From Rugalucina vietnamica (taxonomy: Eukaryota; Mollusca; Bivalvia; Lucinida; Lucinidae): DNA of 64,000 nucleotides. The notes beneath the pieces are model-generated. The model saw only the letters and a list, made by a program, of their open reading frames with translations. It had not been told where the DNA came from and did no database searches. Made by a program: the position numbers and the translations under genes. Below are positions 18,401 through 60,766 of the stretch, piece by piece (the stretch's first letter is position 1; the number at the start of each line of letters is the position of its first letter). Location: assembly GCA_964017185.1 (NCBI GenBank), contig OZ024877.1, positions 8,534,006 to 8,598,005 on the forward strand, given 5' to 3'.

Positions 18401-21400
18401 CAGCTCATTAATATTCATAAGTAGGCACTGGACAAAAAGTGCGGGAAATTTGGTGTGCATATTTGTGTACTGACATATTACACGCCTCAATAAACAATGT
18501 CAAAGGTGAAACTTAGCTGCATAATGCAGCCGTTTCAGCTGGCGATAATCATGTGAACTGATGCGTATAAGGATTATTTTTTGTAAGTGCTAATTTACAG
18601 GTAATTACAAAAGTTCACCGTATTGCAAACCGTATTGCGTATTGCTGTACCTGTATCGCGAACTGTATTGTATCGCCTCCTAGGTGGCAATACGCAGCCC
18701 TAGTACCGGTACATTTGCTTGAGTACCAGTGCCCTTTTATGTGTGCCACATATGTGCTCTATTTATAATGCTGACAGACCTGTGTTTGTTGTTGTTACCT
18801 TGTTGTCAGGTGTTTTGGCTTCAGGGGTTTCTAGGTCATGTAATGTCACTCACACTATTTGCTGTAGATTTGTCAAGTGCACTCAAATTTGATATTTAAG
18901 TTGCCCTTAGAAAGTAAACCTTTTATACAGGTAACCTTGTATACAATATAAATTAACACAGCTTAACTTTCTACATTTATGAATAAGTTAATTTGAAAAG
19001 TAATATATCCTGTTCCATTTCTTTTTGTTGTGTAATTTTTGTTTTTTTAATAGTGTATGCTATTGATTCCCCTTTAAATGTAGGTCTTTTTGTTGAGTCC
19101 TGCTGTGGAAATGCTTTTTCTTTTGGGCTTTGAAAGAAGCTGAGGCACCCTAAACAGGCTTTTCTGACATCATATGAGCCGCATTGTGGGAAAACTAGAT
19201 TTTGCCTATGGGAAAACAAAGGCACAGATCAGCTGATCAGCACTTTTGTTATACCCCCCGCAAAACGAAGTTTTAGGGGGGTATACTGTTTTCAGTCTGT
19301 CCGTAATTCCGTGATTCCGTCATTCCGTGATTCCGTCATTCCGTGATTCCGTCATTCCGTCAACATTTTGACATCTTTGCTGAATAACTTAAGTAGTTTT
19401 TGCCCGATGTTCTTTAAATTTTCAACACACCTGCACCATAAGACAACACATGTGTGGTATGAATTTAGGGGCCAAAGGGTCAGTTTTGCAAGAGTTATGG
19501 GACTTTTTAAACCTATACATAGAATGTTTGCCATAGTGCTAATAGTGCATACTTTGTGAAATCAACTCCTCCTACAGCTTTCAATATTCTCTTTTGATAC
19601 TTTGCAGATATGTGCCAGAGATATTGAAGATATGCATGAAGAAGTATTATGCTGAAAAAATGAATTTTGACAAATTTAGAGCATTTTGAACTTAGCCAAT
19701 TTTTGATAATTGCCATATTCAATAATGGTTGGTAGTGCATAGTTTGTGAAATCAACTCCTCCTAGGGCTTTCAGTATTTCTTTTCAATACTTTGCAGACA
19801 TGTTCCACACATATTGAAGATGTGCATGAAGAATTATAATGCTGAAAAAATAATTTTTGACAAATTTACAGCATTTTTCAACATAGCCATTTTTTGACCA
19901 TTGCTTATATACAATAATGATTGGTAGTTCATAGTTTGTGAAATCAACTTCTCCTAGGGCTTTCAGTATTTCTTTTCAATACTTTGCAGACATGTTCCAC
20001 ACATATTGAAGATGTGCATGAAGAATTATAATGCTGAAAAAATAATTTTTGACAAATTTACAGCATTTTTTAACATAGCCATTTTTTGACCATTGCTTAA
20101 ACAATAATGGTTGGTAGTGCATATTTTGTGAAATCAACTCCTCCTAGGGCTTTCAGTATTTCTTTTCAATACTTTGCAGACATGTTCCACACATATTGAA
20201 GATGTGCATGAAGAATTATAATGCTGAAAAAATAATTTTTGACAAATTTACAGCATTTTTCAACATAGCCATTTTTTGACCATTGCTTATATACAAAAAT
20301 GGTTGGTAGTGCACATTTTGTGAAATCAACTCCTCTAAGGGCTTTCAGTATTTCTTTTTGATACTTTGCAGACATCTTCCTCACATATTGAAGATGTGCA
20401 TGAAGAATTATAATACTGAAAAATTAATTTTTGACAAATTTACAGCATTTTTTAACATAGCCATTTTTTGACCATTGCTTATATACAATGATGGTTTGTG
20501 AAATCAACCCCTCCTAGGGCTTTCAGTATTTCTTTTCAATACTTTGCAGACATGTTCCACACATATTGAAGATGTGCATGAATAATTATAATACTGAAAA
20601 AAGTGATATTTGACAAATTTACATCATTTTTCAACATAGCCATTTCTTGACCATTGCTTATATACAATAATGGTTGGTAGTGCATACTTTGTGAAATCAA
20701 CTCCTCCTAGGGCTTTCAATGTTTCTTTTAGATTCTTTGTAGATTTGTTCCAGATATATTTTAGATGTGCATGAATAATCTTCATGCTGAAAATTTAATT
20801 TTTGACAAACTTACAGCTTTTATTTAACTTAGCCAATTTTTACCATTTCTCATGATAAACAATGGTCATAGTGCATACAGTGAAATCAACCTCAAGCTTT
20901 CAATATATTCTTTTAATATCTTATAGATGTGACTGGCATACTGGGGATGTACATGAAGGATTATAATGCTGAAAAGATATCTTTGACAAATTTTCTGCAT
21001 GTTATTGGCCAGCTTCAGATAATTTTGCGGGGGGTATACTGAAAGCCTTGCTTGCAGCCAATTTCTAGTTTTCACTACATGGATAGTACACTTTGTCACC
21101 TTTCTCTTCTTCTTAACTCCAAAATTTCAAGCTTCTAGCTTGCTTCTGCGACTGTACAGGTCGGTTTGTGTCAGACCTGATTGGAATCACCGAAGACGTT
21201 TTTCTGGCATTGCGGCTTATATGTGTCTGACATGAGTCAGAGTTAAGATTATTTGACAATAATTCGTCATTCAGATCTGGTAAGCTATAACACTTCCAAT
21301 ATTTATTACATGAGGTTTCCACATGAATGCATTGTTCCAAGGAACAAAGTTGCTTTTGACAAGACTATAAACATTGAAAGGAGTATACTCTAGTTTCTTT

Positions 21401-24400
21401 GGCCGTGCTGGATGACCTTTGCTAACAGTTATACATAAATATATTCTTGGTCAGACTGCTTCAAGTAGACATTTTAAGTAATGACATTCTGATCAGGTCA
21501 ATAAGATGCAAGGCTTTTTCTGACCTTTTTGGGAAAGGTTTGGTACCAATTGAAATTGGGAAAAAAATAGCACAATTTGAATGAAAAATAGTAAAATTCT
21601 TGGCCAGATTGAGAAAGTTTACCTTTTAAATTTGCATTTTACTGCTAATTGGGAATGTTTCAGGTTAATTGGGAATTTTTTCAGCCAACTGGGAAAAGAT
21701 TTGTTACCGGAAACAACCCAGTTTTGTATAGAGAAAAAGCCCCGAGATGTGTCAGCACATGTCAAGTGACACTTGAAAAATGTCTAAATTTTCATATAAA
21801 AATGCCCACTAAAACATGGTCGGTGAACTTGTTCTATTTATATAATGACCAACTTGTAGCTGATAGGCATTTTGCACAACATTGTTTATTATTGTTACAT
21901 CACTGATAAACTCGCATATAAAGGTTACTGCCAGTTACATAACTGTAATTTTGTTGCCATAAAAGAAAAAACAAACAAACAAACAAAAAAAAACAACAGA
22001 CTATTGTATGCGTTTTGAAACAAAACACTAACAAAGAGACTACGCGTTTTGAAAAAAAAAAAACAGACTATGCGTTTTGAAAAAAAACAACAAAAAAAAA
22101 CAGACTATGCGTTTTGTAGCTATAGTCGACTTTACTGTTATTCAAAGCTCATTTAACATGTTTAAATCTTGCTCATGAAATTTTATCCTTCGTAATAATA
22201 TAGACTATAAACTGAAAAATAAACATGTCTAGAGTTTCAAGTGTATGTTTATTAACTTTCTGATGGGTAATGTCTGATTAGAGTAAGAGGACAGTGACCA
22301 TTGGAGCCTGCTTTTGCACGACTCGAGAAAACTGGTCATTTGGAATTCTGACTAGGTCCAACATAAACAGGCCTGTGCAGCTACAGAAGATGGCTGAAAG
22401 CTTGAAATTTCGGATTTAGAAAGTAGAGGAATGGTACTATCCGTGTAGTGAAAACAAAGGCATGATCAGCTGTGCAGCTGATCTGCGCCTTTGTTTTTGC
22501 ATAGGCAAAAATCTGGTTTGTCATGACGTGGCTCATATTAGCTTAAACAAAGATAGATTTTCCATTGAAATAGTAAAATCTGTCTTCACCCTTAATGCAC
22601 CAGTAATTTGTAACCCCCCCCCCCCCCACACCTCCTCAAGGTAGTACTCTCTTGAAATACAAGACCAAAATAGAGCAAGCTGCCAATACTTTATGGCAAA
22701 GCCAGCAAAGTTTAGATTAGGAACAAATCGGATCCACTCTGTATACCTGGTCAGGCAATGTTCAGCACTGTCCTCTATGATACAGTGTAGCAGAGACAAC
22801 TTAATAGTCTTTACCTTGATAGTGAATATTGTGTAGACCTAGATCAACACTGCAGTTAACAGGTGTGGGCCTGTTTCAGTATCTACGGGTACCATGTATC
22901 ATACTGCAAACATTCTTGCAATCATCATAATCAACAGAATTTGATATTACATTAAGGAACTTAGAGGAGGTGAAAATTATAATTGATAGAATTTGCTATT
23001 ACAGTAGGGGTCTTAGATGAGATCTAAAGGTTTGCATTGTCTCCCTCAAATTCTTTCATATGTAGGGAGAAACTTTGCAGAAAAATAAGGTGAAAATAAA
23101 AAAAAATAATAATGAAAAAACACACCCTTAGCATCAACTGAATTTGCTTGAATAGAAACTACATCATTAAGTCACGCCGGGTAAACGGTCAATTTGTACA
23201 CCGAAGGCATACAATTATGAAATAATTTGACCAGTTCCGGAGTACAAGTTGACCGGTATAAATAGGACGGAAAGATCAGGACTATCGCAATCAAAGTAAG
23301 ATAATTTCTTCTATTTTAGTGTTATACAAAATCCGAAAATGTCATATGATGGGCTATAAATTTGCGGCTTCTAAGACACCGAGACTTCATAAAAAAGTCA
23401 TAAGATTATGTAATTATCATTTTTTGGCGTATACAATATTTTAATTTTAAAATCTAGACCGAGCTAAAATTGTCTGAGGAAAGCTTTTTTAACAGTCCCC
23501 AAAAGATCTTAGCAACGAAATACCAAGATTTATGAATACTCTTTCAATTCAAGGCATTACATTTGAAAGGGTTGCCTTCAGTTTTGAAAATGGGTCCAAA
23601 TTTTTGCGAGCGTACCAATTGACTAGTGGTGTACAATTTAACTTATGACATTTGCAATGCTATTTGGCCTAGTTTAAATTCGGGTCATCAGTATTTTTGC
23701 TACGTTGTATTTCGTGTATGTTTATGATAAGCTACTATTCTTACATACTATCAGTTTCATACGTCTAGATATCATAAGATTTTCTTGCTTTTTCCTGTTG
23801 CAAACTCATGGAAGCGACTGAATGGTGGTCAGTACAACCAGGTATCTAATATTAAGTGGTTGTCAGTATATTTATAATGTAGTTTAGATGTGTATGCACG
23901 ATAAATATGGGTATCAAGCGCGAGAAATTAGAATTCTTTAACTTTACGCTTAGATTTTTATAGGTGTGCTATTTGACAGTGGAGCGTCCAATTTGACTCT
24001 TATAAATCCAGCCACAATAACTGACGTGTCTCACTCTTCGACATTCTTTCTCATTTACACTGCCTTAAAGTGGGGTTTTGATTTTATTGACCACCTTTGA
24101 CTACTCCTAACTGACTGCGTTACACTATAGTAACGAGAACAAACTACTTCGAGAACAAACAGCATTTAGTATGTAGTACTTCGAAATTAACAATTTTTAT
24201 TTAAGTGTTTTCACTATTAGATATTCTTTATTCAGTTCGTACCTTTCAAGATTATTTCTGCTATATAGAGATGAAACAATCGGTATAGGTTTGGCGAAAC
24301 CTAAAGACACACCCACAAGCAGAACTTGGTTTTGCCACGTTTGAACGAGCGACGACAATGGTTAGATGATCGATGATCAAGACCGCTGTCGTCAGCCACC

Positions 24401-26156: not shown

Positions 26157-28520
26157 CTCACCAAATTTCTTGCCTGATAAAATACGACACCTCCAGATAT
26201 AAACATAAAGAGACATGCAGAGTCTCAAAGGTAAGTACAAATGAACGTTTCTCTTACACGTTCGTGCCATTTATCTTTTCTTTTTTTATTTGAATTGTAA
26301 CATATATTTAATAATCAAGAAAATTCAACTGTATTTCAGTTCTGGAGTTTGGTATGTTTCATGAAAAACGCTTAAACATTTCAAACACATTTTTCTATTA
26401 GTTAAATTGGGCTCCGCTGGTCAATTAGTACGCTTTGGAAATACGGCCCCTCCGCAGATTACACAAACGCATGATTTCCAAAATTGCATGATTAATAATT
26501 ATTTCCCAATATTATTGGCATCCCTGGAATAAAAAACCTAGCCAGACTGTTTAGATTGGAATGCCAGGTTGCATTTCATCTCGATGCAACATTTTTCACA
26601 TAGGTATTTTCCACGCCGAAAATGATTTTGGCAAAATTCATAAGCTTTTGGATGTGCTTTTGTGCGTGTATGATCTTTATTCAAATACCCATCATATGAC
26701 ATTCTCGGATTTTTAAACAAAAGTAAAATAACAAAATAAACTTACGTTTTAACTCTCTCTCCTTTTTTGCGGTTTGTTTACCAGGTCAACTTTCACTCCG
26801 GAAATGGTCAAATTATATATACGATTCACTCCGACGGTGTACAAATTGACCGTTTAGTGGGTGTGTAAGTGCAAGGAGTCTTCTTTGTGAGTCACCATTA
26901 TGTTTTATTCAAATGTGGTCAATAATTATGGGGACAGTCACTCACTGACAGTGACAAGGTCATGTGATTCATTGGCAAACAGTGGCCTTCAACTGTCTTA
27001 ATTGGAAATCTGCATCATCATGAGGACTCAGGTCTGACAGGAAAGCTGTAGATCATAACTACAACTTATCTCCTTTCACATCATAAAATTAAAAAGTCTG
27101 ATCCAACTACAGTAAATTAACTGTCTAAGTTCGATATTTGCGGGCTGTGGTACATGTAAAACAGCTTGGTTTATGTGGAATATAGCTAAAATCAATTTTC
27201 TCATGATGAACTTCAGTCAGCTAAACAATGATACCAAATATGGAGGCTAGTCTTATGGAAATATGTTGTATCATTTTGTACCTGTACTCCTGTTGACACA
27301 CTGTAGTATATCTACACCGGCACTTTTGGGTTTCGTCTTTCCAACGGTGTCAACATAAAAATATCAAATTTTAGAATATTGGAAAAATATGAGCGATCCT
27401 TGGCTTTCTGTTATATCTTAGTTGATAATGCACAAGAATAACCATCATTCGTCGCAGAATGCGTGAAGTTTTAGTGGCTGAATGCTCTAAAACCTTTAGA
27501 AAATCGAAAACAAAATTGTAGGGTTTCGTAGTAAAATTAAGTCCGCCAATGACGAAACCGGACATTTCTGACAAAACCGTACATGTGAAGTTTTCGTTTT
27601 TATCGCACCTGCTTATAGCAGGGTGCGATATAGGAGTCCAAATTTCCGTCCGTCCGTTCGTCCGTCCGACCGTCCGTCCGTCAACATTTACGTCGAAGTT
27701 TGACATTTACGTCAAAGTTTTTGTTATACCCCCGGCATTTATGCCGACGGGTATATAGCTTTCGCTTTTCCGTTCGTCCGTTTGTCTGTTCGTATGTTAG
27801 TTAGTTAGTTCGTTTCTTCGTTCGTAATTCCGGAACGTTCGTGGAATTTATGTCAAAGTTTTGGTTAAAGTTTCTCTAGAGGTGTATATCTCATGAACCA
27901 ATGGTCAGAAACCATTCATATTTGGACCATAGGTACCCTATAGGGTTTGCTTTGTTTCCATGAGTTCGGACCCCAGGGCCCATGCCCCGGGGTAGGGCTG
28001 GAGGTCAAAATCTAGGTCACCTTTAAAATATACTATTTACAATTTTAATGTTTCTTCTCTAAGTCCATATCTTAACAAACAATCAAAGGGATGTATTCTT
28101 ATTTAGTTCCTAGATACCCTATAGGGTTTGCTTTCATATTTCATGCCCGGTACCATCTCCAGGGGTGGGGCTAGAGGTCAAAATCTAGGACTTATTTATA
28201 ATATGGTAAATACCATGATAAATTTTCTGTAAGTCTATTTTCTTGACATCCACAAAGTCTTGTCAGAAAGCATTCATACTTAGACCATAGATACCATGTA
28301 AGGTTCAGACACCAGGGTCCATGTGCGGGGGGTGGGGCTAGAGGTCAAAATCTAGAACTTCTTTAAAAGTTATATTTTCTGTACTTTTCTCTACCACTGT
28401 GTTTAGAAATGATTTGTACATGCACCAAAGGGACTCTATAAGGTTTGCCTGGTTCCTAATGACATTAGACTCTAGGGTCCGTGCCCAGGGTGGGGCCAGA
28501 GGTCAAGATCTAGGACATCT

Positions 28521-28559
<39 letters not shown>

Positions 28560-31500
28560 TATGGAAGAATGACATTCTACTTTACATCTAGGACAGAGGA
28601 CCTGACCCTCAATGTCCGCGATCAAGTCCTAGATTGAGTATACAAGTCAGCTCTGTATACTGTTCTAAAATAGATCTGTCATTCTACTACATTCCCCACC
28701 CCCACCCCCACCCCCCTTCCCATGGTTTTAGACAGTGCATTTTGCAAATACAAATTTATAAGTAATACTTGTTGAGGTTGCTCTCTTTTATTCGGGAATG
28801 GTTCATTGTATCAGTGTCAGTGAGCATGTCTGGGTGGTGGGCCGGGAGGGGGGGGGCTAGGGGAGGGGGCGTTGGAGGGTGCTACCAGCCGGGGGTATAC
28901 GTGCCTCTCAAGGCACTTTTTCTAGTTTTCTCTACATTAGTGATAGCTGTGACTGTGAAACCTTGCATAGTAATTGTCCTTGACATACCCTTCAAGCACG
29001 CACCTAGACCCAGTGCCCTTGACCTATATTTCACGGTCCATTGACTTTTTTAATTTTAACGTCGAAGTTACGTCGAAGTTTGGTTTTCTCTGCATCAGTG
29101 ATAGCCACGAGTGTGAAACCTTGCATAGTAATTGTCCTTGACATACCCTTCAAGCACGCACCTTGACCCAGTGCCCTTGACCTATATTTCACGGTCCATT
29201 GACTTTGTTAATTTTAACGTCGAAGTTACGTCGAAGTTTGGTTTTCTCTGCATCAGTGATAGCCAAAAGTGTGAAACCTTGCATAGTAATTGTCCTTGAC
29301 ATACCCTTCAAGCACGCACCTTGACCCAGTGCCCTTGACCTATATTTCACGGTCCATTGACTTTGTTAATTTTTACGTCGAAGTTACGTCAAAGTTTGGT
29401 TTTCTCTGCATGGGTGATAGCCATGAGTGTGAAACCTTGCATAGTAATTGTCCTTGACATACCCTTCAAGCACGCACCTTGACCCAGTGCCCTTGACCTA
29501 TATTTCACGGTCCATTGACTTTGTTAACTTTTACGTTGAAGTTACATCGAAGTTTGGTTTTCTCTGCATCAGTGATAGCCATGAGTGTGAAACCTTGCAT
29601 AGTTATTGTCCTCGACATACCCTTCAAGCACGCACCTTGACCCAGTGCCCTTGACCTATATTTCACGGTTCACTGACTTTGTTAATTTTTACGTCGAAGT
29701 TTGGTTTTCTCCGCATCATTGATAGCTGCAAGTGTGAAACCATGCATAGGAATTGTCCTTGACATACCCTTCAAGCAGGCACCTTGACCCAGTGCCCTTG
29801 ACCTATATTTTGCGATCCATTGACTTTGCAAATTTTTACTTCAAAATTACTTCGAAGTTTGGTATCCTCTGCATCATTGATAGCTGCGAGTGTGAAACCT
29901 TGCATAGTAATTGTCATTGACATACTCTTCAAGCACTCACCTTGACCCGGTGCCCTTGACCTATATTTCATGTTCCATTGACTTTGCCCGATGCAGGTGC
30001 GATATCGACCTCCGCGGAGTTCTTGTTGTAAGTGTTTTAGTGCACAAAACTTGAAAAATTTCATTTTTTTTTTGCAAACAGAGATGCTTGTTGGTCAAAA
30101 CTCAACACGAACATACTTCAGAAAGGACTTCTTAAGACGTAGATTACAAATATCAAAAAGGTTGCATTTCATTTTTGTCTACTGTAACACTGGTGGAAGG
30201 ACGAAACGCAAAGTGCCGGTGTAGATATACCACAGTGAGACAGGAAGCATGATCATAGAAGTAAATGTAGATCATGTATATGATGCATTATTTATTATTT
30301 TCTACGTATGCAGAAAGCAATTTTCTCAGCTTTCTCTGTCCTGGCCTGATCAAAAGCTGTCCAAATTGTCGGGTCTAAATGTCCAGAAACCTGCTGTATT
30401 ACAGCATGACTTCAGTGGCTGTTTTTGTTGTTGTTATTTTCTGTTTTTACCTGTAAAACACCAACTTGTGCCAAAATAGCTGCATCTTAGTTAAGAAAAC
30501 CTGTCTATGGGGTTTCTGGTTGTACAAAGGTAAATTAATAACTAAATAGCAAAAACATACACACTGTTGGTTTACTGCATCTTTGCTATTGCATGAATGA
30601 ATGCAAAAAGCAGATTTTCCCATGAAGCAGCTGAAATATTAATGAAAACAAAAAATGCTGTACTCTGGTGGATACTTGATGTATACTCAATGAAAGCTGA
30701 ACAGTGTAGATTTCAAACATTATGACTGGTTTGTTTTTTTGTACACCCTAGATGTGATGATATAATGGTTTGTATAATGTATAACCATGATAACCAAACA
30801 AATTATCTGGTATGTCTACGAACAGCATGGTTTTCGTGTTATATCCAAAGACAGGATTTCATTGTGATGGTACAAAGTAATGATCCAAATGGATTATGCA
30901 TCAACAATATCTGCAAATATTATTGCCATGAAAAATTACTCAGAAAGTACTCCCATTGATAAGAATTGTTTTACAATCAGACACCTTGAAACTTGTTATG
31001 GTGAATCTTCAGGTTGATCAATATTACTGGAGCTGAGTCATGAGAAAACTGGATTTTTGCCTATGCAAAAACAAAGGTGCAGATCAGCTGTGCAGTAAAT
31101 GCACAGCTGATCAGCACCTTTTATGTTTTCGCTACAAGGAGAGTACAATCCCTTTTCTCCTGAAATCCGAAATTTCAAGCTTCTAGTGTTCTTCTTTGGC
31201 AGCACAGACCTGTTTGTGTCAGACCTGGTTGGAAATCCCGAAGACCTGCAGTCTGAAGTGCAAACAGTATATTTGTAATTACGTCTTCCCCACCACGCCA
31301 GGAAATGGAGAGAGCTTCTGTTGAGCTTGCTCCCTACTCTCAGTGCTATGCTTACAGATAGTAAAACCACAGCTGATTAAGCTGCCCTCTTTGCCTATAT
31401 AACACAGCCCCTGCTATTCCCCCAGTTTAGCTGTGACTGCTTAGGTCAAATTCCAGCTAGGTCCCCCATCCTACGGGTGTTGGGGGGGAGGGGCCAGGGT

Positions 31501-34500
31501 AGAGAGAACTTTTTTCCAGCTTGCTCCCTACCCCATTCTGTGCTATGTGTACAGAGGTAGTGAAACCACAGCTGTTCACCATGATATTAATATTGCCAGT
31601 CCATCTCAAAAGATCTATCATATGTCTGCTAAGATAGACCTGATGAAACATAATGAGAACCTGAACAGGCTGTGCCCATGAGTTTAAGATTTCAGCCTTT
31701 TAATAAATAAATTGATGTACTGCTTTGTACCTGCTCTAATACAGCCCCTTTCACTCGAGTTTGCCGTTTGATCATTTAGGTCAATCAAATTTGTTCACTC
31801 GAGTTTGCCGTTTGTTTGTAAATCAGGTAACATTTTATTCTATTTTAGAACTGAAACAGTGTCCCAGGTGCCAGGTGTTCTTAAAATCTATTCAGCATTT
31901 ATCTTTAGGTAATGATGTCACCTCTTCTGATAAAACATTGTAATTGCTTGGTTAAAGCAAATTTTTATTTCAAAATTCTTTGCACAACATATACAATGCA
32001 TATTAAGAACACACATTTGTAACAGGATAGAGACAAAAGCAGAATTTTATCAATTTAAGCAGTTACCTGATCGGTATCTACATGGCAAAATTCCCCAAAG
32101 GAAGTTAAAAATTTCACTCGAGTTTGCCGTTTTTAAAGGTCATTTAGTTTGAAGCTGTCACTCAAATCAAAAGATCAATCAATCCAGATGTCTTTGAGGA
32201 CAACATGAAAAGAAGCTCAGATCTTCGGAACACATGGTCTTCTTTTGTGATGCAAATGCTAAAAATGGCAAACTCGACTGAGGAAGTGCACACACAAATG
32301 GAAGTTAAAATTGAAAAGAAAATTTTGGACGCTTTAGGATTGCAATATTTGTTAACATTTGCTTGTTTACTTTGTTGCTTTATGTCCCATTCAACAGCTG
32401 TGGTCATGTGGGGACTTGTGATGATTTTATTAATTTGAAACCCTATTGGGTCAAACAAAATCATATAAAGACACTATATGCCTGGTCACACACAATCTAG
32501 TCTGCCTAAGTTACTTTTACCCTTAAAGCATTATGTTGTAGAGACAAGCCTCAACCAATGTCAGAAATTTGTTTCAAAAATCATTTGGATTAGTTAATCT
32601 GTGTTATTTAAAGCAATATTTTGTAAAAAATGTATGTAGACATTGAAGATTGACATAATCTGCTGTCATTCTAAAACCACTAAAGCAGCCAAATAGATTT
32701 GTACAGCTGAGTGATTGTCAGTTAGAATGGTCAGGAGTGTGAATAACTGTTCTCGACTTTTGGGCAGTATTAACAGCAAGAAGTTTTGGCCAGCTTCCAT
32801 TCATGAGTAGCTTGAAATTTTATTGAAAGTGGCAAAGCATGCCAGGGGAAAATATGATTTCAGTGTGAAACCTCTGAATTTGTGTTAACAGACTATATCA
32901 TATTTATTCTAGGAGAAGAAATAACGTTTTTTTGTCAGTTCTCTTACAAAATTGATGGTCTAGACACTAAAGAACCATCTCCATAGTGCACTTATCATGT
33001 TCATTTAATAGTTCAGATCATTTGGATTCCAAGGGCAAGATATTGATTTACATTCAACCACTTCCTAGGCCCTACAAAGTTTGCAAATTTTTTACTATCG
33101 TGTTGTATGTTGTCAGTTGCTGGCTAAAACAGGGTACTCAGTAATGAATAATGCTAAACTACATGTACATGTACCTCCAGAAAGCCTGTCTACTAAAAAG
33201 TGTAGACTTTAGCATGGTAAAGAAGCTGCAAGTCTTTTCCCCATGACCTCAGTTGTATACTGTTGATGACTTAGACAAAGCCACAAATCAAACAGACTTT
33301 CACTTTTATTCTGAACATACATGTATTGTATATTTCAGATACCTTGGTATTGGATTGGCCGCTCAAGGAGTCAGCATGAACAGACTGCCAGGTGAGGGAC
33401 TTGAATAATTAATCATAACAGCAGAGTTGTCGCTAACTGAGTCAGAATCAAAAAGTTGGAGTTTAAAACTCTTAATTTGGAGTTGAACTCCAAATTATGA
33501 GTTTTAAACTCCAACTTTTTGATTCTGACTCCTAACTCTTTGAAAAGCTCCAATTGTGATGTGTAGGAAGATTGGAAGAATCCAACATTGCAGGAAATGC
33601 CTCACTTTTACTCCAATTTTCAAAATCCTAGTGAGAACTCTGTCAAAGTATATAAAAGAGCTGATGAATGGCTGACCCTCAAAATAAATAGGGATGGCAC
33701 CTAGGAGGTTTGTGAGAAAAAACTTGGAAGATTTGTGAGAAAAAATTTTTGATGATGACGAGATGTCACGATGACAATAGGTTATTATAGCGACAGTGGT
33801 GGCGACGACAATTAATAGTTCCACATTGGTACTTCTGAGTATGGCAGAAGCCATTTGTAACAAAGGCCTCTCACAAGGAATATTTTCTCTTAAAGACTTT
33901 GAAAAGCCCTTTGTGTCCTTCACTAAGAGGAATTTCAACTGATTTAAGCTCTACCAAAAAAAATGCTTTAGAAAAAGAGATTTTTTTATGAAACTGGCTA
34001 TCTAATGTATGTAGTTAGAGAAGTATATTTAGAGAATATACCAATGTAAATACATATGAGCCGCCTCGTGGGAAAACCAACAATCTGCATATGCGAAAAC
34101 AAAGACGTAGATCAGCGTCGCGGTAACCGCGAAGCTGATCAGCGCCTTTGTTTTCGCTACACAGATAGTACACTTCCTCTTCTTTTTAATTCCGAAATTT
34201 CAAGCTTCTAGCCTGCTTCTGTGACTGTGCAGCCTGATTTGTGTCGGACCTGTTCGGAAACCACATTGTTGGTTTTCCCACTAGGCGGCTCATATATCCT
34301 CCTGCCATGCTGCAATGTTTTCCATCTTCAGGTTGGGACAAACACTCCTATGGTTACCATGGTGACGATGGTAACTCGTTCTGTTCCTCTGGTACTGGGG
34401 AGCCGTACGGCCCCACCTTCTCAACCAATGATGTGATAGGATGTTGTGTAAACCTCATAGAAAACACATGCTTCTACACCAAGAATGGGGTCAACCTAGG

Positions 34501-37500
34501 TAGGCTTTGTAGAAATGTTATAGAAGAAAGAGCAAACTGTCAGTAAGATTTCAGAGAAAGAGTGAGCAAATACCAAAGTGAAATATAGGTCAACCTTGTT
34601 AGAACGCTATCTTTGGGGTCCATGGAAACAGATGTGTTATATGTGAACCGTGTTATAATGAGGTTATTCACAATAGACATATAGCTAAAAAAAAATTTGG
34701 GGAGCCATGGCATGGCCGTGCTATATTGAAACCCACACTAAAGTGAGGCCTGTTATAATGAGGTTGAACTGTACATATACAGCTACAAGGGTGTAGGTCT
34801 GTCGGTCATGTTGCCATTGTTTTCACATGAATCATCAAAAAGTTCTTTGTTGTGCAACTTAAAAAATAAGCATCTCAGAATTTGGATTGGAATTAAAATG
34901 TTTTAAGATTTTTAAAAATGTCAGGAATAGAAAAGAAAAAATGAGTTAATTTTCTATTTCACTGAAAAAATAACAGGTTGATTTCATTGTGAATGTTTGC
35001 CTTCTATTCCAGGTATTGCCTTCACAGATTTACCAGTGAGTATTTCTAGCCTTTAAACATTGTATTGAGAAATCTCTTAACAAAATTTCCCTTGCAATGT
35101 ATTGACAAACCAACCAGTAAACATTCAGATTGGTGTTTTGAAAAAAAGAACGGCCTCAATTAAGAGAGAAATCTTGTCTTCAATGAGACCTTAGTCAATG
35201 TTTGACTCTAAACCAAGGCTAATAGTAAATTGGGCATCAGGCTTCATGTACAGCCAAAGATGTGTACAGTAGAGGCAGATCAGGCATCTGAAAAGCGAAA
35301 GCAAAGGCATGGATCAGATGTGCAGCTACTGCACAGCCTATCTGCGCCTTTGTTTTTGTGTATTTGAAAAACAGGCTTTCTTGTGGCAGCTCTATTTGAG
35401 CCGCTTGTGGGAAAACCAACAATGTGGTTTCCGAACAGGTCCGACATAAACCGACCTGTACAGTTACTGAAAAGAGCTAGAATCTTGAAATTTTGGATTT
35501 AAGTAGACGAGGAACTGTACTATCCCAGTAGCGAAAACAAAGGCGCTGATCAGCTTCGCAGTAACTGCGAAGCTGATCTGCGCCTTTGTTTTCGCCTGGG
35601 CAGATTGTTGGTTTTCCCATGTGGCGGCTCATTTATAGTGGAGTAAAACTGATACAATAAATACAGTATCAAATTGTAAAATGAATAGGTTGTCAAAACA
35701 CTGACCATATTTATGTCAACAAATAGATTTAAACTTGGTTGATTCATTATATGATAAACTTGAATTACAAACAGACACCAAATAGGCTAATCAGTCACAC
35801 AAAACAAAATCAGATACTTTTCAAGTGCAGACATTGGTCAGTCTTACATCAACCAGTCAGACTGTTCAGAGCTTCTTGTCCCTACGGGGTATGCCAGGAC
35901 CAAACTGTTTTAGAAAGACGTCATGCTAGAAAGTGCTAGTACGTGTACGTGTTTATGCTGGCTATTTATGTCATTATGTCGGTTTTGCTTTTGTTTTGCA
36001 GCACCTATAGAAAAATTTGACCAACATTTTTGTGCTGATGTTGACTATGTTTTCTGTGTTTCAGCCTAATCTATACCCTACAGTTGGTCTACAGACTCCT
36101 GGTGAAGTGGTAGAGGCCAACTTTGGTCAGAGTCCTTTCGTCTTTGATATAGAAGATTATATGAGGGTATGTAGCTTACATTATATTGAAATATATATAA
36201 ATGAAAGTCTGGAAAATATGTGGTAAGGAAGTAAGTTCATACAAATGAGCCGCCTCATGGGGAAAAACAACAGTCTGCATAGGCGAAAACAAAGACGCAG
36301 ATCAGCTTCGCGGTAACCGCGAAGCTGATCAGCGCCTTTGTTTTCGCTACTCGGATAGTACAATTCCACTTCTACATAAATCTGATATTTCAAGCTTCTA
36401 GCTCTTTTCTGTGCTTGTACAGGCCGGTTTGTGTCGGACCTGTTCGGAAACCACATTGTTGGTTTTCCCACGAGGTGGCTGCCATGTCAATTTTGCATAC
36501 AAAGCCTCACCATTGGTTCCTCAAAAGATGCTAGAAAAACATTACGCTACTTAAAATTGGCTGCAAATTTTCATAAGAAAGCAGTCCATGGCGGCATAAT
36601 TTTGTGCTTGAAAAATCATAGAAGACCTTATAGAAGCCATCCGTAATAAGTTTGTTAAGTTGTTATAGGAATGGAGAATGAAGACTCGACTGACCATAGA
36701 GCGGTTCCCTGTCAATGATAAGAAGGGAGAGTGGCAAACAGCATTACAAAGGTATACAAACATCTAGAATATAGGAATCAACCATTGTTTTCAGTGTTCA
36801 AACATTTGATGCCATCATGGATCATGAGGAGGGTGTTGTAACACAAGGTCGAAGGCCACATGTTCAAACCCCTTCCAAGTGATTCAGCGAATGTTTGTGA
36901 AGACTGAAACAAAACATGGTTGATCTCTATTCTTGCATTTCATGGGAATTCACTTAAAATCTCTTGAAAATAACATTACGAACGTAAGAATGTAAAAGCT
37001 CACCGAAATCCGCAGGGCGTCTTTAAGGTCGGCCATTTTGTTTCTATGGAACAGAATGACATCACATCACATTGACCAATGATGTAGACAGATTTAAGCC
37101 CAAAGCCATGTTCAAACAGAAAGTGAATTTCATGATTTGAACATGGGTTTGCTGTTTGATCACATCTCTCCGCCTTATTGAAAACGGCTTTAAACAGCTA
37201 TGTGCATAGATATCTATGCAAGAATAGGACTTAAAGCAGGGCTCAAAAAAGTCGAAACGCCAAAACCTTGCATCTTACATTGCGGTGTTTCATGGCCAAT
37301 GTGAGTAAATAATGTAACATGGTCTAGGTCATGTGACTGGTAAAGGTTTTTCATAGATAGATGGAGAATTTCAAGATTGACACTGCTTTCTCAAACTAGT
37401 GCAAAGAAGAAAAAAAAGAATTAGTTTGGCCAAGCATGAAATTCGGTTTAATACTGAATATTCATCAAAAGTGATGATTTTGACAAACAAATGACACATT

Positions 37501-45568: not shown

Positions 45569-45710
45569 CAGAGGCTGACGGGACCAGCTACAATGTTGGT
45601 CTATACCTAGATACATGTCCATTTAAATCCAGGGTTCTGACAGAAAACAAAAAGAATTGACTTTTTTAGCTCAATTGGAAATGAAGCTCAATTGTAACTA
45701 ACTGAAATTA
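45569..45710 (+). other. Start of the RANBP9/10 3'UTR
   Basis: This is non-coding sequence after the stop codon up to the first transposon. No AATAAA was seen, so the transcript probably runs on, either into the repeats or past them to about 50.5 kb. The end of the mRNA cannot be placed from sequence. Confidence 0.5.
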
Positions 45711-48700
45711 AGGCCAAGTTTCCACGGACAATTTTACTTTGACAAAGATTATTTGTCACAGATGTTTGGCAATGAGTTTGCGCTCTCACACAGCAAAGAT
45801 TACTTATTAGCTCACCTGAGCCGAAGGCTCACAAGGTTAGCTAATAGGATGGCCATGATCCGGCGTCCGTCCGTCGTCGTCCGTCCGTCCGTCGTCGTCG
45901 TCCACAATTTCAAAGATCTTCTTCTCTGAAACCGCTTGGCCGATCTAGTTGAAATTTTATGTGGAGCCTCCTTGGGTAGTGGCATTTCAAGTTTGATCGC
46001 GAAATCCAGGTCACATGACCAAGATGGCCGCCACGCCCATATATGGTAAAAACCCTTCAAAAATCTTCTTCTCCAGAACCGGTGGGCCGATTTCCACGAA
46101 ACTTGGTATGTAGCATTGGGGACTTCAGCCCATCATAGTTTGATAAAATGATGACCCTTGGATGACCTTGACCTATTTTACGGCAAGGTCAAATTTGGAA
46201 ACATAGGCTTTAACATGGGAAAAAGTGAAAACTATGGATTTTTTGAAAACTATTGCAGCCTGAGGCCTGAAAAGTGGTAGATGCAAACAACTAATGGAGT
46301 AGATGAAGGTATGTGATTAATTTAGGTCAAGGTCATCTCTTGACCTTGGCCAGTATGTCATCCATACACACTTTTCAAAGATCTTCTTCTCTGAAACTGC
46401 TTGGCCAATCAAAGTGAAATTTTATGTGGAGCATCCATGGGTAGGGAAGACGAAAGTTTGATCGCAAAATCCAGGTCACATGACCAAGATGGCCGCCACG
46501 CCCATATATGGTAAAAACCACTAAAAAATCTTCTTCTCCAGAACCCGCCGGCCGATTTTCACGAAACTTGGTATGTAGCATTTGGGGCTCCAGCCCATCA
46601 TAGTTTGATCAAATGATGACCATAGGATGACCTGGACCTATTTTACGGCAAGGTCAATTTTGGAAACATAGGCTTTTACATGGGAAAAAGTGAAAACTAT
46701 GGATTTTTTGAAAACTATTGCAGCCTGAGGCCTGAAAAGTGGTAGATGCAAACAACCAATGGAGGAGATGAAGGTATGTGATTAATTTAGGTCAAGGTCA
46801 TCTCTTGACCTTGGCCAGTCTGTCGTCCATACACACTTTTCAAAGATCTTCTTCTCTGAAACTGCTTGGCCAATCAAAGTGAAATTTTATGTGGAGCATC
46901 CATGACTAGGGGAGACAAAAGTTTGACCGCGAAATCCAGGTCACATGACCAAGATGGCCGCCACGCCCATATATGGTAAAAACCACTCAAAAATCTTCTC
47001 CAGAACCGGTGGGCTAATTTCCGCGAAACTTGGTATGTAGCATCGGGGACTTCAGCCCATCATAGTTTGATAAAATGATGACCCTTGGATGACCTTGACC
47101 TATTTTACGGCAAGGTCAAATTTGGAAACATATGCTTTTACATGGGAAAAAGTTTTTGAAAACTATTGCAGCCTGAGGCCCGAAAAGTGGTAGATGCAAA
47201 CAACTAATGGAGTAGATGAAGGTATGTGATTAATTTAGGTCAAGGTCATTTCTTGACCTTGGCCAGTCTGTCGTCCATACACACTTTTCAAAGATCTTCT
47301 TCTCTGAAACTGCTTAGTCAATCAAAGTGAAATTTTATGTGGAGCATCCATTTAATAGGGGAGATGAAAGTTTGATTGCGAAATCCAGGTCACATGAGCA
47401 AGATGGCCGCCACGCCCATATATGGTAAAAACCACTCAAAAATCTTCTTCTCCAGAACCGGCAGGCCGATTTTCACGAAACTTGGTATGTAGCATTTGGG
47501 ACTCTAGCCCATCATAGTTTGATCAAATGATGACCATAGGATGACCTTGACCTATTTTACGGCAAGGTCAAATTTGGAAACATATGCTCTTAAATTGGAA
47601 AAGTGAAACTATTGATTTTTTGAAAACTGTTGCAGCCTGAGACCTGAAAAGTGGTAGATGCAAACAACTAATGGAGTAGATGAAGGTATGTGATTAATTT
47701 AGGTCAAGGTCATCTCTTGACCTTGGCCAGTCTGTTGTCCATACACACTTTTCAAAGATCTTCTCTGAAACTGCTCGGCCAATCAAAGTGAAATTTTATG
47801 TGGAGCGTCTATGGATAGGGGGAACGAAAGTTTGATCGTGAAATTCGGGTCACATGACCAAGATGGCTGCCATGCCCAACTATGGTAAAAACCACTCAAA
47901 TATCTCCTTCTCCAGAACCGGCTGGCCGATTTTCGCGAAACTTGTCCAGCCCATCATAGTTTGTTGAAATAATGACCCTAGGATGACCTTGACCTATTTT
48001 ACGGCAATGTCAATTTTGGAAACATAGGCTTTTACATGGGAAAAGGTGAAAACAGTGGATATTTTGGAAACTGGTGCAGCCTGAGGCCCGAAAAGTAGTA
48101 GATGCAAACAACTAATGGAGTAGATGAAGGTATGTGATTAATTTAGGTCAAGGTCATTTCTTGACCTTGGCCAGTCTGTCGTCCATACACACTTTTCAAA
48201 GATCTTCTTCTCTGAAACAGCTTGGTCAATCAAAGTGAAATTTTATGTGGAGCATCCATTTAATAGGGGAGATGAAAGTTTGATTGCGAAATCCAGGTCA
48301 CATGAGCAAGATGGCCGCCACGCCCATATATGGTAAAAACCACTCAAAAATCTTCTTCTCCAGAACCGGCAGGCCGATTTTCACGAAACTTGGTATGTAG
48401 CATTTGGGACTCCAGCCCATCATAGTTTGATCAAATGATGACCATAGGATGACCTTGACTTATTTTACGGCAAGGTCAAATTTGGAAACATATGCTCTTA
48501 CATTGGAAAAGTGAAACTATTGATTTTTTGAAAACTGTTGCAGCCTGAGACCTGAAAAGTGGTAGATGCAAACAACTAATGGAGTAGATGAAGGTATGTG
48601 ATTAATTTAGGTCAAGGTCATCTCTTGACCTTGGCCAGTCTGTTGTCCATACACACTTTTCAAAGATCTTCTCTGAAACTGCTCGGCCAATTAAAGTGAA

Positions 48701-49431
48701 ATTTTATGTGGAGCGTCTATGGATAGGGGGAACCAAAGTTTGATCGTGAAATTCGGGTCACATGACCAAGATGGCTGCCATGCCCAACTATGGTAAAAAC
48801 CACTCAAATATCTTCTTCTCCAGAACCGGCTGGCCGATTTTCGCGAAACTTGTACAGCCCATCATAGTTTGTTGAAATAATGACCCTAGGATGACCTTGA
48901 CCTATTTTACAGCAATGTCAATTTTGGAAACATAGGCTTTTACATGGGAAAAGGTGAAAACAGTGGATATTTTGGAAACTGGTGCAGCCTGAGACCTGAA
49001 AGTTGCTAGATGCAGACAACTAATGGAGTCAATGAAGGTAAGTAATTAATGAAGGCCAAGGTCATTTCTTGACCTTGACCCCAGGTCATTTAAATATCAA
49101 AATTAAAATTATGGTTTTCTCAGAAATCACTGGGTTTGGAAACTATTGCAGCCTGAGACCTGAAACTTTGCAGATGCAGACAACTTATGAAGTCAATAAA
49201 GGTGTGTGAGTATTCAAGGTCAAGGTCATTTCATGATGACTTAATACTCCAAGATCAGGCTTCAGGTGAGCGTTCTCAGGACCAATGGTCCTCTGGTATT
49301 ACTTAGCTTGCTCACCTTTGTCACAGATATTTGACGATGAAACTTCGCCACAGAATTGAATTTACGCGAGCATATTTTTTCTGCGAAGGTCCTACTTTGT
49401 CAAAGAAAAATTGTCCGTGGAAATGAGGCCT
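45711..49431. mobile_element. TIR MITE X, split by Helitron-like family D
   Basis: Left end AGGCCAAGTTTCCACGGACA then ATTTTACTTTGACAAAG. Right end is the inverse, TTTGTCAAAGAAAAATTGTC then CGTGGAAATGAGGCCT. The arms continue as TTTGTCACAGATRTTTG. Without the insert it is about 0.23 kb. It lies in the presumed 3'UTR or just past it. Confidence 0.72.
45809..49296 (+). mobile_element. Helitron-like family D, copy 2 (complete, 3.5 kb)
   Basis: Starts AGCTCACCTGAGCCGAAGG, then GTCCGTCCGTCGTCG repeats. The core has about seven units of 443-468 bp keyed by CAAAGATCTTCTTCTCTGAA (45908, 46376, 46843, 47289, 47755, 48198, 48662). It ends TTCAGGTGAGCG, hairpin AGGACCAATGGTCCT, then CTGG before T. Non-coding. 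Units keep GGTCACATGACCAAGATGGC and ACCTATTTTACGGCAAGGTC. Confidence 0.87.
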
Positions 49432-49601
49432 ATGGGAGTACCAGGGTTTTAAGTTAAAGAAAAAGGTCTGGAACAAATTTGAAAAGAAACAGATGTTTTG
49501 ACAGATTTTTGGTGTGATAAAAACAAGGTGTTTATGGGTCATTTGGAAAAGGCCTTTTGTAGTAATGGACTCTGGATATTAAAACACATTCCCTCTCGTA
49601 T

Positions 49602-49836
49602 GAGCCGCGACACGAGAAAACCGGTCTTTGGGAGTCCTGATCCGGTCTGACACAAACAAGGCTGTACAGTTACAGAATACGGCTAGAATCTTGAAATTTT
49701 GTGTATGAGTAGAGTAGGAATTGTACTATCCGTGTAGCGAAAACAAAGGCGCTGATCAGCTTGGCAGTTACTGCGAAGCTGAGCTCCGCCTTTGTTTTCG
49801 CACAGGCAAAAATCCCGTTTTCTCATGATGCAGCTC
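49602..49836 (-). mobile_element. MITE family S, copy 13
   Basis: GAGCCGCGACACGAGAAAAC to TCTCATGATGCAGCTC. Flanks GTAT/ATAT (one mismatch). Centre CAGCTTGGCAGTTACTGCGA. Confidence 0.88.
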
Positions 49837-50018
49837 ATATTATAGTCAACAATCATCATTGCGTGAATGGTATTTATTTATTATGAAAGTCTGTATATAC
49901 ACAGCCAAGCAATTTTGTATGCCTGATGTACATTGGAAATTAATAGTTGGGTGAAGTCTATGAGTTTTGGAATAATGAACACCGGGATCTTGTTTTGATG
50001 GAAGATATTATAGCATTT

Positions 50019-50253
50019 GAGCCGCCGCATGGGAAAACAAACAATCTGCATAGGCGAAAACAAAGGCACAGATCAGCTTCGCAGTAACTGCGAAGCTGAT
50101 CAGCGCCTTTGTTTTCGCTACACGGATAGTACAATTCCTTTACTATCTAAATCCAAAATTTCCAGCCTCTTACTATCTTCTGTGACTGTACAGCATGGTT
50201 TGTGTCAGACCTGGTTGGAAACCCAGATTGTTGGTTTTCTCACACACAGGCTC
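50019..50253 (+). mobile_element. MITE family S, copy 14
   Basis: GAGCCGCCGCATGGGAAAAC to TTCTCACACACAGGCTC, flanked by ATTT/ATTT. Centre CAGCTTCGCAGTAACTGCGA. Confidence 0.92.
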
Positions 50254-50263
50254 ATTTTATGTT

Positions 50264-50600: not shown

Positions 50601-50835
50601 GAGCCGCGACGCGAGAAAACCGGTCTTCGGGATTTCCGACCAGGTCTGACACAAACTGGCCTGTACAGTTTCAGAAGAAGTCTAGAAGATTGAAATTTCG
50701 GATTTAAGAAGAAAAGAAATGGTACTATCCGTGTAGCGAAAACAAAGGCGCTGATCAGCTTCGCAGTTACTGCGAAGCTGATCTGCGCCTTTGTTTTCGC
50801 ATAGGCAACAATCCGCTTTTCTCACGATGCGGCTT
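50601..50835 (-). mobile_element. MITE family S, copy 15
   Basis: GAGCCGCGACGCGAGAAAAC to TTCTCACGATGCGGCTT, flanked by AATT/AATT. Centre CAGCTTCGCAGTTACTGCGA. Confidence 0.92.
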
Positions 50836-55158: not shown

Positions 55159-55221
55159 ATGTCTCCCCCCGACAGGGTCGGGAGACATATTGTTTTTCCC
55201 CGTGCGTCTGTCCGTCCGTCC

Positions 55222-55276
<55 letters not shown>

Positions 55277-56849
55277 CATCACAAATCGTGTCCGCTCTGT
55301 AACTTAAAAACCGTTAAAGATTTTTCAATGAAACTTGGTACACTTGTAAACCACGACGAGACGATGTGTCATGCACAAGAACCATAACTCTAGCTTGAGT
55401 ATTTTTGGAGTTATTTCCCTTTGATTATTTTCGATACAATTTCGTGTCCGCTTTGTATAACTTGAAAACCGTTAAAGATTTTTCAATGAAACTTAGTACA
55501 CTTGTAGACCACGAGGAGACGATGTGTCATGCACAAGAACCATAACTCTAGCTTGAGTATTTTTGGAGTTATTTCCCTTTGATTATTTTCGACATAATTT
55601 CATGTCCACTGTATAACTTGAAAACCGTTTCAGATTTTTCAATGAAACTTGGTACACTTGTAGACCATGACGAGACGATGTGTCATGCACAAGAACCATA
55701 ACTCTGGCTTGAGTATTTTTGGAGTTATTTCCCTTTGATTATTTTCGACATAATTTCATGTCCACTGTATAACTTGAAAACCGTTTAAGATTTTTCAATG
55801 AAACTTGGTACACTTGTAGACCATGACGAGACGATGTGTCATGCACAAGAACCATAACTCTGGCTTGAGTATTTTTGTAGTTATTTCCCTTTGATTATTT
55901 TCGACATAATTTCATGTCCACTGTATAACTTGAAAACCGTTTAAGATTTTTCAATAAAACTTGATACACTTATTGAGCATGATCAGACGATGTGTCATGC
56001 ACAAGAACCATAACTCTGGCTTGAGTATTTTATGAGTTATTTCCCTTTGATTATTTTCCATACAATTTCGTGTCTGCTTTATAACTCGAAAATCATAAGA
56101 GTTATTTCAATGAACTTGGTACACTTATAAAGCACGCTGAGATTACGTATCGTGCTAAAGAACCATAACTCTTGCTTGCATATCTTTGGAGTAATTTCCC
56201 TTTATTTTCCATACAATTTCATGTCCACCCTATAACTTGAAAACCGTAAGAGAAATTTCAGTGAAACTTGGTACACATATAAAGCATGATGAGACGATGT
56301 GTCATGCACAAGAATTATAACTCATGCTTTCATATCTTTGGAGTTATTTCCCTTTGATTATTTGTCCATACAATTTCATGTCCACTCTATAACTTGAAAA
56401 CCATCAGAAATATTTCAATGAAACTTGGTACACTTATAAAGCACGATGAGATGATGTGTCATGCTAAAGAACCATAACTCTTGCTTGCATATCTTTGGAG
56501 TTATTTCCCTTTGATTATTTTTCATTCAATTTCGTGTCTGCTCTATAACTCAAAAACCATTAGAGATTTTTCAATGAAACATGGTACACTTATAAAGCAT
56601 GATGCACAAGAATCATTACTCTTGCTTTCATATCTTTGGAGTTATTTCCCTTTGATTATTTTCCAAACACTTTCGTGCCCCCTCTATAACTTGAAAACCG
56701 TAAGAGATATTTCAATGAAACTTGGTACACTTATAAAACAGAATGACAGGATATGTGATGCACAAGAACTATAACTCTTGCTTGCATATTTTGGACATGC
56801 ACGTAGAAAGGGGGGAGACATCAGTTTTCACATAGAAAACAAATTCTAG
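55159..56849 (+). mobile_element. Helitron-like family E element (complete, 1.7 kb)
   Basis: Starts ATGTCTCCCCCCGAC..GTCGGGAGACAT (own hairpin), then GTCCGTCCGTCC and a TCTG microsatellite to about 55275. The core has ten units of about 157 bp keyed by ACTTGAAAACCG/GAAACTTGGTACAC (near 55308, 55466, 55621, 55778, 55933, 56090, 56240, 56397, 56552, 56705). It ends with GGGGGGAGACAT, hairpin GTTTTC-ACATA-GAAAAC, then AAATTCTAG before TT. Flanks are T and T. Non-coding. Confidence 0.9.
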
Positions 56850-58142: not shown

Positions 58143-58247
58143 CTGGAAATTCCAGATTTCAATAGTTTGTTTTATGCCCTCTTATCAGAAATGTCAAGTG
58201 TAGAAAATAGAGCAGTTCAAGTGCAGAGATGTAAGTGCAGAATAACT

Positions 58248-58944: not shown

Positions 58945-59235
58945 ACATCAAGAAAACTGTGTAGTGTATACCCCCTTGAACCCCACATTTATATAGCAAA
59001 ACTGGGGTATGCAGGGGTATACCTATTTTTCTCATTTTTGTTCCAAAACATAGATTGTGGGTACTCGTTAGAACCACCTCATCAAGGCAGTTCTAAACCG
59101 CCTCATCGAGGCGGTTCTAACGTGTACCCACAAACTATGTTTTGAGTAAAAATAGGAACAATATGAATACTGAAAATTTTCAACTTTTACAACTTCAGAA
59201 AAATCTGTATATTGCATGGGCGATTTTTGGTAATG
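58945..59235 (+). mobile_element. MITE family T, copy 3
   Basis: ACATCAAGAAAACTG at the start, AACCCCACATTTATATAGC, and a hairpin with GTTAGAACC..GGTTCTAAC including a duplicated CCGCCTCATCGAGGCGG-like block. Ends TGCATGGGCGATTTTTGGTAATG. Confidence 0.78.
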
Positions 59236-59275
59236 AGGTGAGCAAAAGAGTATCTGAATCTTGTTAGCTCACCTG

Positions 59276-60766
59276 AGCCGTAAGGCTCACAAGGTGATCT
59301 TATAGGATGGCCATGATCCGGCGTCCGTCCGTCGTCCACCCGTCCGTCGTCGTCCACCATTTTCAAAGATCTCCTCTGAAACCGCTTGGCCAATCAAAGC
59401 CAAATTTTATATGAAGCATCTATAGGAAGGGGGAACCAGTGTGTATATAAATAATCCAGGTCACATGACCAAGATGGCCCCCATGCCCATATATGGTAAA
59501 AACCTTTAAAAATCTTCTTCTCCAGAACCCAAAAACCTAGGATCTTGAAACTTGGCATGTAGCATAAGGGACTCAAGGTCCACAATGTATATATAAATCA
59601 TGACTCTGTGATGACCTTGACCTATTTTACGGCAAGGTCAACATAGGTTGCCAATGCATTTGAATGGGGAAAACTTTTAAAATGTCATTTAAAGTGAAAG
59701 TCTTGCAGGAAATGGGCAGTAGGACTGAATATTAATGATTCTGAAAAAAATGGACCCCAAGGGCTCATATGCCCCCACCCCGGGGCAATATACATGTATA
59801 TCTCCATAATAATCAAACATTTTCTTCTGAAACCTCTTGGCCAATCAAAGTCAAATTTTATGTGAAGCATCTATAGGATGGGGTAACCAGTGTATATATA
59901 AAAAATCCAGGTCACATGACCAAGATGCCCATATATGGTAAAAACCCTTCAAAAATCTTCTTCTCCGGAACCGGTTGACTGATTTCAACGAAACTTGGCA
60001 TGAGTATTGATGACTCAAGTACTACAATGTGTATATAAATCATGACCCAGTGATGACCTTGGCCTATTTTACGGCAAGGTCAACATAGGTTGCCAATGCA
60101 TTTGAATGGGGAAAACTTTTGAAATGTCATTTAAAGTGAAAGTCTTGCAGGAAATGCACAGTAGGACTGAATATTAATGATTCTGAAAAAGATTGGTCCC
60201 CAGGAGCTTCTATGCCCCCACCCCGTGGCAGTATACATATATATTTCCATAATATTCAAACATCTTCTCCTCTGAAACCACTCGGCCAATCAAAGCCAAA
60301 TTTTATGTGAAGCATCTATAGGATGGGGTAACCAATGTGTATATAAATAATCCAGGTCACATGACCAAGATGGCCGCCATGCCTATATATGGTAAAAACC
60401 CTTCAAAAATCTTCTTCTCCGGAACCGGTGGACGGATTTCAAAGAAACTTGGCATGAAGCATTGATGGCTAAAGTACTATAATGTGTATATAAATCATGA
60501 CCCTGTGGTGACCTTGACCTATTTGACGACAAGGTCAACATAGGTTGCCAATGCATTTGAATGGGGAAAACTGTTAACATGTCATTTAAAGGGAATAAAT
60601 AAAATAGAAATTGGCAAATGGACAGAATATTGATTATTCTGAAAACAAATGGCCCAAGGGCTTCATCTGCTCCTGCACTGGGGCTAAATACCATAATATT
60701 CAAACATGTTTATTGGCATATGTAGCAGATTTCAGGTGAGCGTTTACAGGACCATTGGTCCTCTGG
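59276..60766 (+). mobile_element. Helitron-like family D, copy 3 (complete, 1.5 kb)
   Basis: AGCTCACCTGAGCCGTAAGG, GTCCGTCCGTCGTCC, three core units of about 440-455 bp (CTTCTGAAACC near 59366, 59820, 60262). Ends TTCAGGTGAGCG, hairpin AGGACCATTGGTCCT, CTGG before TT. Flanks are T and T. Its core is a diverged relative of copy 2 (shared GGTCACATGACCAAGATG). Confidence 0.87.

Follow-up and report, generated by a model that had tools for sequence, protein, structure and literature searches.

Is a short CCGT-rich stretch, standing at nearly the same place in mobile elements whose ends and cores are largely dissimilar, a working part of these elements, or a piece inherited together with their 5´ end? 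The question is raised by the 64-kb stretch of Rugalucina vietnamica DNA that was analysed here and that we call, at its full length, the window. It contains nine elements and one fragment of five families, A-E (Table 1). We consider it very likely that the nine elements are HINEs, that is, non-autonomous Helentron-type rolling-circle transposons. The initial annotation had recognized all five families; it overlooked a minus-strand copy and a minus-strand fragment of family A (A3 and A4), its start of D3 (59276) had to be corrected to 59266, and its element D1 has no 3´ terminus. The sample is thin: B, C and E are represented by single copies, A and D by three to four.

Table 1. Elements and neighbouring features of the window (positions counted from its first letter; HINE is used at the confidence given in the text)
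Feature	Position	Strand	Remarks
A1, HINE family A	27602-30025	+	split by nested element B; zone 27645-27682; 3´ subTIR GCAGGTGCGAT; ends CTTG
A2, HINE family A	44184-44925	+	zone 44227-44268; core units ~147-170 bp; ends CTTG; inside an X foldback repeat
A3, family A copy	14237-14753	-	5´ end 14753; zone 14711-14684; 3´ end missing
A4, family A fragment	~14777-15157	-	no ends; core and weakly matching zone remnant (E 0.005)
B, HINE	27726-28925	+	nested in A1; degenerate TTCG/CCGT/GTTA zone 27767-27834; hairpin tail; ends CTAG
C, HINE	19251-21068	+	8/16-nt period zone 19290-19362; core units ~192 bp; ends CTAG; inside an X foldback repeat
D1, HINE family D	37594-39480 (end approximate)	+	zone 37650-37683; core units ~145-312 bp; 3´ terminus absent
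D2, HINE family D	45809-49296	+	zone 45862-45903, mixed GTCC/GTC units; core units ~465 bp; ends CTGG
D3, HINE family D	59266-60766	+	zone 59320-59358; core units ~442 bp; ends CTGG
E, HINE	55159-56849	+	(CCGT)n(CTGT)n zone 55200-55276; core units ~156 bp; hairpin tail; ends CTAG
Edge CGTC[AC]ACATTT	C 19358-19368; A1 27679-27689; D1 37678-37688; A2 44265-44275	+	exact match
Edge CGTC[AC]ACATTT	A3 14676-14686	-	exact match
X foldback repeat copies (first part)	17500-17720, 22319-22540, 31030-31246, 34054-34280, 35397-35635, 36245-36470	both among copies	
X foldback repeat copies (rest, and others)	49604-49840, 50015-50257, 50603-50834, 61551-61793, 62309-62503	both among copies	
Non-LTR retrotransposon	8749-12368	+	interrupted
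Exon-like frame	40250-40996	+	CTLH domain
Tandem array, 31-bp unit	13879-14040		diverged relative 16682-16756
11-mer repeats	41600-42600		inverted pair 41687/42450

The elements have several neighbours in the window. An interrupted non-LTR retrotransposon carries endonuclease (PF14529) and reverse transcriptase (PF00078) frames. A CTLH domain is encoded in the exon-like frame, which is related to Ran-binding proteins 9 and 10; some of the elements may possibly lie within introns of this gene. Other repeats are the tandem array of a 31-bp unit (TATGGGAATAGACATTTTGGCACAGTAGACAT type), whose diverged relative lies about 2.6 kb away, and a group of CCACGCAAAACCCACGC-like 11-mers, partly tandem, which includes an inverted pair.

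At the 5´ side, the first base is A and is preceded by TT in all nine elements. An exact inverted repeat of part of the 5´ end, 6-9 nt long, lies inside the first 50 nt of each of them, and all nine 5´ ends fold into a hairpin (-7.7 to -13.3 kcal/mol, calculated without shuffle control). Among 2000 random sites with A after TT, an inverted repeat of at least 6 nt was present at 246, of at least 8 nt at 45 and of at least 9 nt at 15. The 6-nt repeats of A3, B, D2 and D3 are therefore weak alone, and these cases depend mainly on the predicted fold.

The inverse of the terminal motif, which had been described near the 3´ end, was indeed present there as an exact match of 8-15 nt in seven of the nine elements, A3 and D1 having lost that end. 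It begins 33-46 nt inside the end in all seven. Since 8 nt were also attained at 57 of 2000 random sites, the 8-nt motif of A2 is weak alone; 10 nt were reached at three random sites and 11 nt at one. The 3´ termini are CTAG, CTGG or CTTG, and the next base is T in 7/7. For B, D and E, tails with a clear hairpin and a CTAG or CTGG end had been reported. The terminal letters were confirmed for B and E (CTAG) and for D2 and D3 (CTGG), D1 being without a 3´ end. As to the hairpins, folds as good as that of the tail were given by 12 of 500 mononucleotide shuffles for E, 21 for B, 53 for D2, 62 for D3, 102 for C, 322 for A1 and 441 for A2. By these counts the tail hairpin has support in two elements, B and E. 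It is borderline for D2 and D3 and weak for C, and there is no support for it in family A, in which a palindrome, CTCCGCGGAG, can be made out by eye.

A tandem core, the central part of the proposed body plan, is present in all five families; it was detected by TRF, and in B by a likeness test instead. In each of the eight elements tested (A1, A2, B, C, D1, D2, D3 and E), likeness to the core begins 0-30 nt behind the CCGT-type zone. Of 200 shuffles, eight were as good for C, which is weak, one for D1 and none for the other six; the end of the E zone was set four bases further on for this test, and A1 offers only 43 bases before the nested B. On the other side, a gap of 7-23 nt separates the core from the 3´ subterminal repeat in A, C and E; in D3 and D2 this gap measures 137-185 nt. 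Because the interior of A, C and E is almost wholly tandem repeat, a core that lies close to the zone does not in itself demonstrate a role of the zone.

The families had been said to share no overall sequence, which stands for most pairs. When the cores of A, B, C, D1, D2 and E were compared in 15 pairs, D1 and D2 proved homologous (0/500 shuffles as good). Four further pairs were suggestive before correction for 15 pairs (A-B with 8 of 500 shuffles as good, B-D1 with 9, C-E and E-B with 11 each), and the remaining ten were equalled by 35-478 of 500. A comparison with looser scores was discarded, as its alignments ran across long unrelated stretches; there too, D1-D2 was the sole pair unmatched by shuffles. 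From these alignments, cores of different families do not appear demonstrably related, D1-D2 being the only clear pair. The other exception to the lack of shared sequence is the short edge motif common to A, C and D1, described below. The D core may resemble the core of Drosophila DINE-1.

The location between T residues, also part of the original description, was borne out by T on both flanks of all seven elements with both ends. The foldback (palindromic) repeat X, about 240 bp long and present on both strands in more than 10 copies, has served as insertion site for C and A2, and A1 for B, so that paralogous empty sites are available for these three. Of 13 empty sites for C (14 were listed, one of which, at 17723, was misaligned and left out), 11 have four Ts and two have five, compared with six around the element. 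For A2, four Ts are found in 9/11 and five in two, again compared with six around the element. Compared with the commoner empty site, both insertions thus bring two additional Ts. These extra Ts are either TT carried by the element or a TT target duplication, so that insertion without duplication, as originally described, is one of two readings, and the same ambiguity between no TSD and a TT TSD at a TT target is met in the account of DINE-1 by Yang and Barbash (PMC2374699, excerpts). For B, 12 of 15 empty units read GTTT[GA]G-TTTTC, and the occupied unit has GTTTTTG-TT ahead of the element and TTTTC after it. Three nucleotides, Ts included, are added here, and the T count is therefore less clear than for C and A2. 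No empty site for A1, D2, D3 or E was found in the window. By eye, the two flanks of D2 (45710-45800 and 49310-49440) resemble each other in inverted orientation, which may place D2 within another foldback repeat.

The filing of the elements as non-autonomous Helentrons of HINE or pearl type fits this anatomy, with a 5´ subTIR and IR in 9/9 elements and an inverse 3´ subTIR in 7/9. Their body plan had also been called unusual, which we cannot maintain, since the same order of parts is in print in the sections of PMC2374699, PMC7492417 and PMC8268682 on which we draw. The layout of end, microsatellite, repeat and end is genuine but already described for HINE-type elements of flies and oysters. 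Excerpts of further work agree with this: PMC8268682 has the microsatellite behind the 5´ end, PMC3630058 reports GTCY-rich repeats in a Calliphora element, and PMC4067079 links such elements to Helentrons.

According to the excerpts of PMC7492417, Cg_HINE of Crassostrea gigas has, like the elements here, a 5´ subTIR (normally 11-12 bp in the oyster), an adjacent IR, a microsatellite, an array in fixed orientation and a 3´ subTIR. It also has a palindrome, comparable to the tail hairpins of B and E, and a TT-rich site at which no TSD was found, comparable to the T-flanked sites of our elements. This likeness is one of plan. Some Cg_HINE families are unrelated in all modules yet have a common plan, and a GTCY, GTCC or GTCK microsatellite is named for six of 11 elements. 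A difference is the distance from microsatellite to first repeat, 10-500 bp in Cg_HINE, whereas core likeness follows the zone within 0-30 nt here. In pearl of bivalves, up to six repeats of about 160 bp form a short array with a flank on either side, an architecture like the one here. PMC7492417 groups pearl with HINE, together with the bivalve elements DTC84 and MgE, whose architecture is comparable to that of pearl.

Drosophila DINE-1, in the excerpts of PMC2374699, has (CCGT)n(CTGT)n behind the 5´ end, within block A, in 12 species, and shares with our elements a subTIR and partial IR, central repeats and a TT target; its 3´ stem-loop is comparable to the tail hairpins of B and E. ATACCC occurs in 12 of the 14 rows of its subTIR table, and B and C begin with ATACCC. 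Its conserved core exceeds 90 bp and includes (TA)4. DINE-1 differs in being without the CTRR end, which the ends of B, C, D2, D3 and E resemble. Hel-2 Helitrons of Lepidoptera have a variable (CTGT)n downstream of the 5´ subterminal repeat (excerpts of PMC4344730), a likeness of arrangement.

Neither a Rep nor a helicase, as an autonomous Helentron partner would encode, was found by Pfam scan among 16 of the 18 ORFs in the 64-kb window that measure 110 aa or more from stop to stop; the two ORFs outside the scan are antisense in the D1 core. Canonical Helitrons insert between A and T. The elements do not match this, with A after TT in nine of nine and a position between Ts in seven of seven. 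Of the canonical ends, 5´ TC and 3´ CTRR (PMC2374699, excerpts), the latter is matched by CTAG or CTGG in 5/7 elements, and CTTG in the other two does not fit.

Searches of contig collections beyond the window covered viruses and prokaryotes, so that absence there says little about animals. Prokaryote genome contigs gave no match to GTCCGTCCGTCCGTCMACATTT, the D hairpin patterns were absent from both viral and prokaryote genome contigs, and the A hairpin was absent from viral contigs. In viral contigs, two stretches matching GTCCGTCCGTCMACATTT were set aside as chance, with no element ends in the parts viewed, and 85 stretches with a C-like hairpin were rejected, none of them having at least three GTCY units within 150 nt.

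The CCGT stretch was claimed to lie directly behind the terminal motif, and this proved correct: in all nine elements, 40-57 nt separate the 5´ end from the start of the zone, whose limits we drew from repeats and by eye. Allowing up to two mismatches, TCCGTCCGTCCG has 40 matches in the window, compared with 0.52 expected; none of 100 shuffles reached this number. Every one of the 40 falls inside one of the nine elements or A4, in sense orientation, and the rest of the window has none. The zones are 28-77 nt long with a period of 3, 4 or 8/16. Their units are of CCGT/TCGT type in A and of CCGT type in D1; D2 and D3 mix GTCC with GTC, and C has an 8/16-nt pattern. In E the zone is built as (CCGT)n(CTGT)n, and in B it is degenerate.

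A scan for the anatomy that made no use of the zone recovered C, A1, B and E, every one of them carrying a zone. It missed five of the nine known elements (A2, A3, D1, D2 and D3) and is therefore weak evidence that elements without a zone are absent. Its other matches were rejected, as they lay in the core of D1 or D2 or between X foldback repeats, or were inverted pairs without a 3´ stem. The top strand of the zone is less self-paired than the downstream element in seven of eight elements tested (A3, having no background, was excluded), and D1 shows no such effect. The reduction exceeds two standard deviations in B, C and E only; in A1, A2, D1, D2 and D3 pairing differs from that of the remaining element by no more than about one standard deviation.

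The 3´ edge of the zone offers a more specific signal. Exact CGTC[AC]ACATTT occurs five times in the window, each time at the 3´ edge of a zone (A1, A2, A3, C and D1). The motif of D2 deviates at one position, and B, D3 and E are without it. With one mismatch allowed, there are eight matches, compared with 3.0 expected and a maximum of seven in 100 shuffles; placement is thus more informative than count. We found no report of this edge in the excerpts of HINE and Helentron literature used here or in literature searches by terms other than its letters, and its sharing by A, C and D1 may be a small part of the finding that is new.

What, then, maintains the zones? Common descent of a slippage-prone 5´ module is in our opinion the most likely answer, and a direct role of the CCGT zone, a putative one, is possible. 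The role could be that of a selected cis element of Helentron transposition, for example a loading site or spacer beside the 5´ hairpin for the Rep-helicase or a single-strand-binding protein. We think this unlikely. It would account for the equal placement of the zone in five families whose ends and cores mostly differ, for the edge shared by A1-A3, C and D1, for the lower self-pairing in seven of eight zones, and for a similar tetranucleotide at an equal place in Drosophila, moths and oyster (excerpts of PMC2374699, PMC4344730 and PMC7492417). However, length and period vary from zone to zone, B is degenerate, B, D3 and E miss the exact edge, and five of the eight zones pair much like the element around them. 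In the oyster, moreover, the GTCY-type microsatellite is named for only 6/11 Cg_HINE and is described as eroded (PMC7492417, excerpts), and an obligatory role is opposed by mite HINEs, in which, by the excerpts of PMC4067079, only some copies have microsatellites or tandem repeats. In the parts of the HINE and Helentron literature that we cite, no function ascribed to the microsatellite was found. Still more doubtful is the wider proposal that the CCGT/GTCY zone and its edge CGTC[AC]ACATTT form a cis module conserved at the 5´ ends of Helentrons in animals, from insects to the species studied here, which would be needed for strand transfer or for building the adjacent tandem core, while terminal repeats and cores turn over.

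The zones might also be independent, ordinary microsatellites that hitchhike in the elements and have become alike by slippage. The title of Coates et al. (2011) reportedly applies the term hitchhiking to (GTCY)n in moth MITEs. Such convergence is nevertheless quite improbable, because all 40 CCGT-type matches fall in the elements or the fragment, the position of the zone is fixed and the edge motif is shared. The elements themselves could alternatively be cut-and-paste MITEs with a TT target duplication, as the addition of exactly two Ts by C and A2, relative to the common empty site, would suggest; DINE-1-like elements were formerly classed as MITEs, among others (excerpts of PMC4067079 and PMC2374699). 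This we regard as very improbable, since the 3´ inverse repeat, starting 33-46 nt from the end in 7/7, is not terminal, five of the seven ends are CTAG or CTGG, and B adds three nucleotides rather than two.

Under the preferred reading of inheritance by common descent, a Helentron Rep-helicase from another locus would recognize the ends of the elements. Rolling-circle copying of the element would follow, and then its joining into T-rich sites. The cores might grow via replication slippage, template switching or unequal exchange. Most simply, the CCGT zone would be a slippage-prone stretch passed down with the Helentron 5´ module and retained on account of its position beside the recognized end.

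The plan itself adds little to published HINE work. The edge common to families A, C and D makes the function of the zone testable by deletion. If the zone acts in transposition, it would provide a sequence handle on the start of Helentron copying and on the continued spread of satellite-like repeats.
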